Assembly: GCF_048128805.1 (NCBI RefSeq)
Contig: NC_136017.1
Location: 18,774,307 to 18,838,306 of the forward strand
Source of the DNA: Centroberyx gerrardi
Lineage: Eukaryota > Chordata > Actinopteri > Beryciformes > Berycidae
Direction of reading: 5' to 3'
DNA length: 64,000 nucleotides
Part shown: in pieces, positions 1 through 26,242 of the stretch
Position numbering within the stretch: position 1 is the stretch's first letter
How the letters are laid out: every line of letters begins with the position of its first letter
The notes under the pieces: generated by a model
Database searches by the model: none
Seen by the model: the letters and a program-made list of their open reading frames with translations, nothing else
Told to the model about the DNA's origin: nothing
Translations under genes and position numbers: made by a program

Positions 1-3000
1 AACATGTTTTCCATCATGATCCCTATTAGTAGAAACCATAACTTCGCTAGCTGCCTGCTCCGCCCGTCCGGTAACAACCGGGCTGCCCCCTCCCACTCTA
101 CTGCAATAGAAACCTAGGGGCATACGTGACAGTCTTTATGATAAACGTTGTTTATCATAAAGACATAATAACGTTGCTCTCATTCGCAACTATGACACTG
201 CGTGAACAGCTAAGTATGCATCAGTTTTGCTGAGAAATGCTGAGGTATTTTCATCACGTCATAGATTGGAGACATCCAAGTGTGTCCGAGGTCATGTCAA
301 GGAGGGGGAAAAGAGGGGGACAATAGGAGGATTTCAACAGAAAATTTGTAATAGTTGCACATTAATATCACACAATGTGCAGTCATTTCTGATGAGTTTT
401 TCTAAAGCTCAAACAGAACTCTGAACTACAGAAGAGAACTCTGGTGGAAATTGCTTAAATTAAGTTGATCGTTCCCACTCTTTGCCCCTTCTTCTATTTT
501 TTGTACTCATCATCAAATGTTCCTATTGTCCTTTTAAGATCCTTGATCCTCAGAGCATTAACCTGGATTTATAAAGGTTAAAAAAAAAATAAACAAAGAG
601 AACAAGTTTAATTTATTAACTACAGGGTCCAATAACTATTTCTCAAACACCAGGTCTAAACAAGTTTGATTTATTAAACTTGTGCTCCGGTAGCAGATTT
701 GAGATGATTCAGAACATTGGAAGGCTTGAGGTCTAAGGTAGCAGTGGAGAAACATCACCAGTGGTCTTGAGGAGGTCAAGGAGCTGCTCCCTCTTGGAGA
801 ACTTGGTGACCTGGATAAACGTCTGTTCCACATCACTGCAGGCTCCGCCCACCACACCCACAGCCAGGAACAAATAGTCTGTCTTCAGGAAGTCAGCTGC
901 CATCCTATAAAAACCCACAGTGATAGATATTCTCACACACACACACACAATCAGCTCTTTTTCAGCAGCTGTCCTGGATCAATGTGAAAGATTGGTCCAT
1001 AGAGGAACAGACCTCTGGATGTCCTCAGGGTAGGTAGCACTGAACATCAGGGTCTGACGCTCTTCTTTGGGTGGCATACCAGGGGAGCCCACCAGGCGGT
1101 GCATGTCAGGCTCAAAGCCCATGTCCAACATCCGGTCCGCCTCATCCAGCACCAAGTAGCGCAGCTTGCTCAAACCAACCTGAAGGCAACATGCCGCAAA
1201 TGATTTATAGTTAAGCCTGGAGCCAAAGGCTGTGCAGCTTCACTGCTTTCATGTGACCAATGAGAGACTTTTTTAAAAAAAAAATATTTTTTTTATTTTG
1301 CACAATAAAACAAAGCAGCAAAAACATGACAACAAAAGAGAAGAAGCAAATTGTGCAGGTGAGATTTAGAAAACCCCTAGAGGCTTATAGAAAGAATCTC
1401 ACCTCAATACGCATTATAAGCAAATACGAAAGTCATGTAATCCAACAAAAATAAGCAAACAAGCAACCATAAGATCAAAAAGCAAACATAAAGTAGGCAG
1501 GATAAAACAAGCAAAGACATAAAATAATAAAAATAATGTAATGAGGGTGTGGGTGCTTTGGCGTATGTGTGTGTATACGTGAGCGTGTGCGCGTGCATGC
1601 GAGTGTGAGCGCGCGTGTACTGAAGCACACTTGTGTTCAGACAACTCCTTAGAAAAGAGGAAAGATAGTCAAAGATAGATAGTCAGATATGATCAGTTTG
1701 GATAGTTAAGTTTGGTTCATTAGACAGGTCCTAAGCCTATATTTGAAATTCTTGAGAGAAGTAGACTGAAATGCAATTTGAATATAACTGTTCCATAGCT
1801 GAGCCCCCCTATATCTAATAGAGAATTGACAAAGCCCAGTACGGAACATTGGGAGGTGTAACCATTTGGCATGTCTCGTATTAAAGTTGTGTACATCACT
1901 GTTCGGCTGGAAAAATGCTTTACAAGGCAAGGGAAGCGAAGCAGGCTGATGCAAAATTTTGAAAATAAAAACACAAGTTTGGTATTTATTTATGTTAAAA
2001 ATTTATAGGATCTTGAGCTGATTGAAGAGAGACTTCATACATGGACAATAACAGTTTACCTTTCCTCTTCCAATCACATCCAACAGCCTCCCTGGGGTCC
2101 CACACAGCACATTGCATCCCTTCTGGACTTCACGGATTTGGTGTCCAGTGCTGATTCCACCATAAACCACTACTGGACGCACACAAGTCCTACAACAGTC
2201 AGAGGAAAGAAAATTTTTGAGCCAAGAGAATGTACAAATTATTATTCAATTACAATATCTTTCATCTGCAGAGCGTATACATTTCCCAGTGCTAGCCAAC
2301 TACAGGGTCTAATAACTATTTCCCAAACACAAAGTCTAAACAGACCCATGAGAAAACTTCCTGGCCTCCATGTAAATCTGGTTGATAAGCTCCCTGGTTG
2401 GGGCCACAATGACGGCCTCAGGCTCCTGCAGCTCACTGTAGCGACTGGCTGCCACGCCGTCCGACATCAGCTGCTGCAGGATAGGCAACAGGAATGCAGC
2501 CTGGAGGGAGGAGATGCATTAAAACCCTATAAGCAGAAGCAAACTTGAGGCCCACTTGCTGATTCTCCAGGGGCGTCTCACCGTTTTGCCAGATCCGGTC
2601 TGGGCACAGGCCATGACGTCTCTGCCAGCAGAGATGATTGGGATGCCATGCTTCTGCACCGGGGTTGGCTTCACATAGCCAGACTTGCTGACATTCTGTT
2701 TTAGGGACTCGCACAATGCTGCCTCTTCAAAAGTCTGAAGATAAACAGGTTTTTATTGTTGTCAATTGTTGTTATTGTTACCAACTGATGGCTACAAAAC
2801 TCTGATCAGAAGCCATTTGCATGTTAACTTTCTGCAGCCTTGGCAACTTGTGCGTGTAAGGCTAGGTTCACACCGGCCATGTAACGGCAGCAAAGCGTAG
2901 CCCGCTTCCTTTCGGCGCCCATGTTAATGGGTCAGACTGTTCACACGGGCCGTGGAGTACTCGTGGCTCGCAATCTGCAGTGACAGTTTCGGTTCCTAGT

Positions 3001-26242: not shown

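Follow-up and report, generated by a model that had tools for sequence, protein, structure and literature searches.

Centroberyx gerrardi (order Beryciformes) carries two complete copies of ddx4 (vasa) that lie divergently at one locus, within 27.4 kb. We consider it likely that the pair arose by an old inverted duplication of ddx4 beside UBE3A and was afterwards subject to gene conversion from arm to arm. We infer from the sequence that conversion is the cause of the arm identity, and that it took place at least once and probably twice. Vasa is usually single-copy in vertebrates (PMC3245284), and the accessible portions of the open-access literature searched neither describe an inverted ddx4 pair nor include a genome paper on Centroberyx gerrardi.

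The analysis used sequence only, from one unsexed assembly (779 Mb, 278 contigs). The window, the whole 64,000-nt stretch analyzed, corresponds to C21:18774307-18838306 on a contig (C21) of 25,800,532 bases. Flanking sequence was joined to the window, giving an examined stretch of 140 kb whose middle is identical to the window. Negative coordinates denote positions left of the window start, in the fetched flank.

Two complete ddx4 genes beside UBE3A

The right copy (14392..26242, plus strand) has 22 coding exons, running from an ATG at 14392 to a stop codon that ends at 26242, and encodes 632 aa. The left copy, on the minus strand, extends from 11883 leftward to -1105 and also has 22 coding exons, encoding 634 aa followed by a stop codon. 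Its part inside the window (1..11883) contains coding exons 1-18 (11883 to 759), and exons 19-22, outside the window, were read in flank sequence. All internal splice sites of both copies are GT/AG, and the two start codons are spaced 2,508 bp apart. These results bear out the sequence-only reading, which had described two vasa genes facing away from each other across a 2.5-kb spacer, with a full right copy of 632 codons and a left copy intact as far as the window reached; the left copy proved complete, its last four exons lying beyond the window edge.

All differences between the left and right proteins, 7 amino-acid changes and an indel of two residues, fall in the first 98 codons; 3 additional codon differences between the copies are silent. 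From codon 99 onward the coding sequences are identical, and the helicase and C-terminus are the same in both proteins. Apparently neither reading frame hints at a pseudogene, although exons 1-6 offer too little sequence to demonstrate that both are under selection.

Vasa proteins are defined by an RGG-rich N-terminus and an acidic, tryptophan-containing C-terminus. In both translations, exons 3-10 encode RGG repeats and the last residues are DDEEWE, and the same N- and C-terminal features are present in the fish proteins we fetched for comparison. In a protein search, DDX4/vasa-named records dominated the best 120 of 7,983 matches, with percomorph proteins 80-91% identical, and among these best 120 the helicase core was most like fish DDX4. 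When searched against solved structures, human DDX3X (1.3e-148) scored slightly above insect vasa (1.9e-147 and 8.4e-145), so the two families are not told apart by the structure library. Of 21 candidates in a search for relatives of the right copy's N-terminus, 2 proteins were returned, one of them from Centroberyx gerrardi itself.

No third ddx4 copy was found in genome searches that scored the best 95 of 146, 40 of 4,252, and 40 of 510 candidates. Extra copies elsewhere were rejected, as there were two copies only among the candidates scored. The next-best coding matches in the genome lie on C10 and, near 19.17 Mb, on C21; their identity does not exceed 72%, and they presumably represent DDX3 genes. 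We note a DDX3-like gene at C21:19169504-19177968, ~0.37 Mb from the ddx4 pair, with exon matches 46-69% identical, and a further DDX3-like match set on C10 near 21.35 Mb. Of the 48 matches listed in a genome copy search, most trace to a dispersed repeat at 14612-15170, in intron 1 of the right copy.

The left neighbor of the pair is UBE3A, identified from a flank open frame that matches residues 123-540 (E 1e-247). This neighbor is the one expected at the teleost locus, as UBE3A and ANKRD10 flank vasa in stickleback, Tetraodon, medaka, and tilapia (PMC3245284). To the right, the minus strand carries a CCDC14-like gene, recognized from two open frames (E 6.3e-18 and 8.3e-8). ANKRD10 was found neither on the right side by a rough pattern scan nor among the Ank_2 matches listed, both searches being coarse.

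Several other features were noted around the pair. The CCDC14-like gene spans window positions 29082-43168 (minus strand), with one long exon in the window's most GC-rich stretch (42-44 kb, GC 0.51). Long open frames at 30208-32319 (minus strand) are candidate reverse-transcriptase-like remains of a non-LTR element, and a 461-aa open frame at approximately -23986 to -22604 is a candidate cyclic-nucleotide-gated channel exon. The window also holds a small inverted repeat (46134-46616 and 49957-50508; ~430 bp, ~96% alike) and a 92-bp inverted pair (35497-35588 and 35948-36039; 97% alike, 359 bp apart).

Stepwise divergence between the arms

In a scan of the window, the first inverted pair measured 5,246 nt with 100% (rounded) complementarity, far above chance. 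When the flank is included, near-identity covers 6.7 kb per arm (-1151..5555 versus 19575..26287, 99.5%). The core of the left arm (-1130..5139, of which 1..5139 is in the window), containing exons 9-22, pairs with 19998..26267 in the right arm without gaps and with 1 mismatch over 6,270 aligned columns. This sole mismatch, at 508/24629, is noncoding (0/1,604 coding and 1/4,666 noncoding columns differ). At the inner edge of the arms (5140..5555 on the left and its partner 19575..19997 on the right), 16/355 noncoding columns differ.

Intron 6 of each copy contains a stretch without counterpart in the other. The left stretch (5556..6239) has no Pfam match, and the right stretch (16971..19574) carries two dispersed repeats (~17109-17541 and 18573-18954) whose copies elsewhere are 92-97% alike. 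Homology resumes in a block around exons 2-6 (6240..7402, minus strand; partner 15869..16970, plus strand), where 57/868 noncoding and 5/220 coding columns differ, a noncoding divergence of 6.6%. The exon-1 block (11815..11937, minus strand; partner 14343..14456, plus strand) has a BLAST identity of 75%, and the putative promoter/5′ region blocks (12448..12667, minus strand; 13062..13467, plus strand) align at 66% and 76% in BLAST. The axis of the inverted pair lies near 12.87 kb, and 394 bp between the innermost blocks are without alignment.

The exon-1, promoter, and 3′-UTR blocks are ~19-40% diverged, and much of the sequence between them is unalignable. Noncoding mismatches in the blocks of this oldest level are 24/93, 61/151, 11/59, and 12/56, the first from exon 1 and the next two from the promoter region. 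Inverted arms of at least 12 kb, as the sequence-only reading had claimed, do not withstand this comparison: near-identity is limited to 6.7 kb, and the inner half is strongly diverged and aligns only in blocks. We rejected a 12-kb palindrome because alignment inward of the near-identical tract is limited to a ~1.1-kb block, the exon-1 block, and two short blocks of the promoter region.

Beyond the outer edge of the identical tract, a 57-bp core of the 3′ UTR aligns at ~75% by dynamic programming. With three of the four local scoring schemes, none of 3,000 segments matched in composition scored as high as this core; with the most lenient scheme, 9/3,000 and 0/3,000 segments did so in two nulls. 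A shuffle test gave 11/500, and the match was not significant under global alignment scorings. BLAST beyond the outer edges returned only a 54-bp match at the tract edge and weak matches with E ≥ 0.23.

Divergence thus changes in abrupt steps inside one homologous pair, as in gene-converted pairs (Fisher test, oldest versus middle level, 2.6e-25; middle versus recent level, 1.4e-45). The inner edge and the exons 2-6 block do not differ significantly (Fisher p 0.19) and, judged by sequence, may represent one older conversion level. The oldest level comprises ~360 aligned noncoding bases, and one of its promoter blocks has 28% mismatch in one alignment and 40% after realignment. In the collinear inverted pair, this oldest level flanks the youngest on both sides, and three levels arranged in this way fit an old duplication that was later partly overwritten.

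Applying a Jukes-Cantor correction and a substitution rate of 5.5e-9 per site per year (PMC3245284), we obtained ~19-53 My for the oldest blocks, ~6 My for exons 2-6, and at most ~0.1 My for the core, ages that are rough, as the rate is borrowed. A dispersed repeat in intron 16 (23106..23849 in the right copy) has a counterpart at the matching position of the left arm, and its main copies elsewhere are 89-95% alike. Since the ends of the pair are far more diverged than this, the repeat is younger than the old level and must have moved between the arms as part of the copied sequence.

Origin of the pair

We hypothesize that the pair goes back to an old head-to-head duplication of a single ancestral ddx4 adjoining UBE3A, a duplication that would have taken in exon 1, the promoter blocks, and the 3′ UTR. 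Later conversion, once or possibly in several steps, may have acted over at least exons 2-8, which are now 4.5-6.6% diverged. A very recent conversion would then have covered 6.27 kb, from intron 8 to ~25 bp past the stop codon, leaving 1 difference. The unmatched intron 6 stretches, ~0.4 kb inward of the recent tract, probably limit the reach of conversion. That the recent tract ends just past the stop codon could also reflect one long copying event, in which a recent second duplication, for instance through break-induced replication, added the rear half to an old inverted ddx4 fragment. We consider such a history improbable, as the 3′-UTR homology past the tract is at old divergence, suggesting that the old copy already extended that far; mechanistically, it also shades into conversion.

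Within the arm, divergence drops from ~4.5% to 0.02%, a step that might also be seen if both copies were real and assembly collapse or consensus polishing had overstated their identity, the true arms perhaps differing by several percent like exons 2-6. This reading is unlikely, if worth keeping in mind: a private mismatch was kept at 508/24629, and each arm has unique flank on both sides, by which ordinary long reads could presumably place it. Assemblies do contain false duplications and read fold-backs, and an inverted duplication that is wholly artefactual would be expected to be alike throughout. Here, however, the interior is 6.6% to ~40% diverged while the frames are open and the splice sites intact, and the pair occurs on only one contig among the candidates scored, making an artefact of this kind extremely improbable.

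The sequence-only reading had likened the locus to the ampliconic palindromes of sex chromosomes. A germline gene in an inverted pair with arms more than 99% identical is what would be expected of such a palindrome, in which steady conversion maintains arm identity within a region that does not recombine. One part of the likeness stands, namely an arm identity that resembles gene conversion (99.5% over 6.7 kb and 1/6,270 in the core, values that collapse could exaggerate). The ampliconic structure does not: there are two copies among the candidates scored rather than many, the arms are short at 6.7 kb, and identity is confined to the outer half. The examined stretch of 140 kb showed no second large inverted pair. 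Noncoding GC in the arms is 0.394, compared to a mean of 0.402 (SD 0.020) in 21 flank windows, and is thus not raised, giving no sign of long-continued biased conversion. A DM-domain search of the genome returned 7 matches, none of them on C21, which is a weak test. A sex-chromosome ampliconic palindrome is not supported by these sequence comparisons, and we regard it as very unlikely. With old duplication and later conversion as the preferred reading, conversion would be acting on a germline regulator without evidence for a sex chromosome.

Two promoter-like blocks are present in the 2.5-kb region, and both start codons point outward. The simplest working picture would be that this region is a two-way germline promoter region feeding both genes, with both transcribed from facing promoters. 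The outcome would be that one and the same helicase is supplied by two genes, with N-termini that differ slightly, possibly raising dosage or allowing the copies to be expressed at different germ-cell stages. By separating a conserved part (helicase and C-terminus) from a changeable part (promoter and first exons), the pair would offer a natural experiment.

Comparison with known systems

Divergent duplicate pairs under concerted evolution have facing promoters and conversion tracts bounded by heterology, features that the ddx4 pair appears to share. To our knowledge, such pairs concern other genes, none having been found for ddx4 in the literature searched.

With mammalian sex-chromosome palindromes, as described in the parts of the study drawn on here (PMC8981503), the pair shares arms more than 99% alike, a germline gene, and likely arm-to-arm conversion. 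Unlike those palindromes, it lacks raised GC and has a large diverged interior, and its arms of 6.7 kb compare to a median arm of 37 kb for primate X palindromes.

In medaka, vasa is locally inverted between UBE3A and ANKRD10 compared with its orientation in other teleosts, with one vasa at the locus (PMC3245284). Both vasa orientations therefore occur at the UBE3A locus among teleosts, and any tie between this and the inverted pair is conjecture. Diretmus argenteus has two DDX4 models that agree at 485/492 aligned residues and lie on contigs of 132,264 and 46,329,599 bases; they may be two loci or two haplotypes. Together, the two Diretmus models and the medaka inversion leave room for an older shared pair. 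We think it unlikely that the pair is an ancient acanthomorph feature at the UBE3A locus, tens of My old, in which the helicase halves were re-copied while promoters and N-termini were free to specialize, with lineage losses leading to the medaka orientation and Diretmus as another survivor. If the pair is shared with relatives, it could be dated and would provide a test of inverted duplication followed by loss as the cause of orientation changes.

Nile tilapia (Fujimura et al. 2011, PMC3245284), so far as the sections of that study used here describe it, resembles Centroberyx in having extra intron-bearing full vasa copies, a UBE3A-adjacent ancestral locus, and 22 coding exons. The parallel to tilapia drawn by the earlier reading holds for the presence of multiple vasa copies but not for their arrangement, as in tilapia the copies were dispersed to two further sites, one of them via a circular DNA intermediate, and do not form an inverted pair. 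We rejected a dispersed duplication of the tilapia type because both Centroberyx copies fall within the same 27.4 kb. Unlike those of tilapia, the Centroberyx copies occupy one locus, are inverted, and are partly homogenized.
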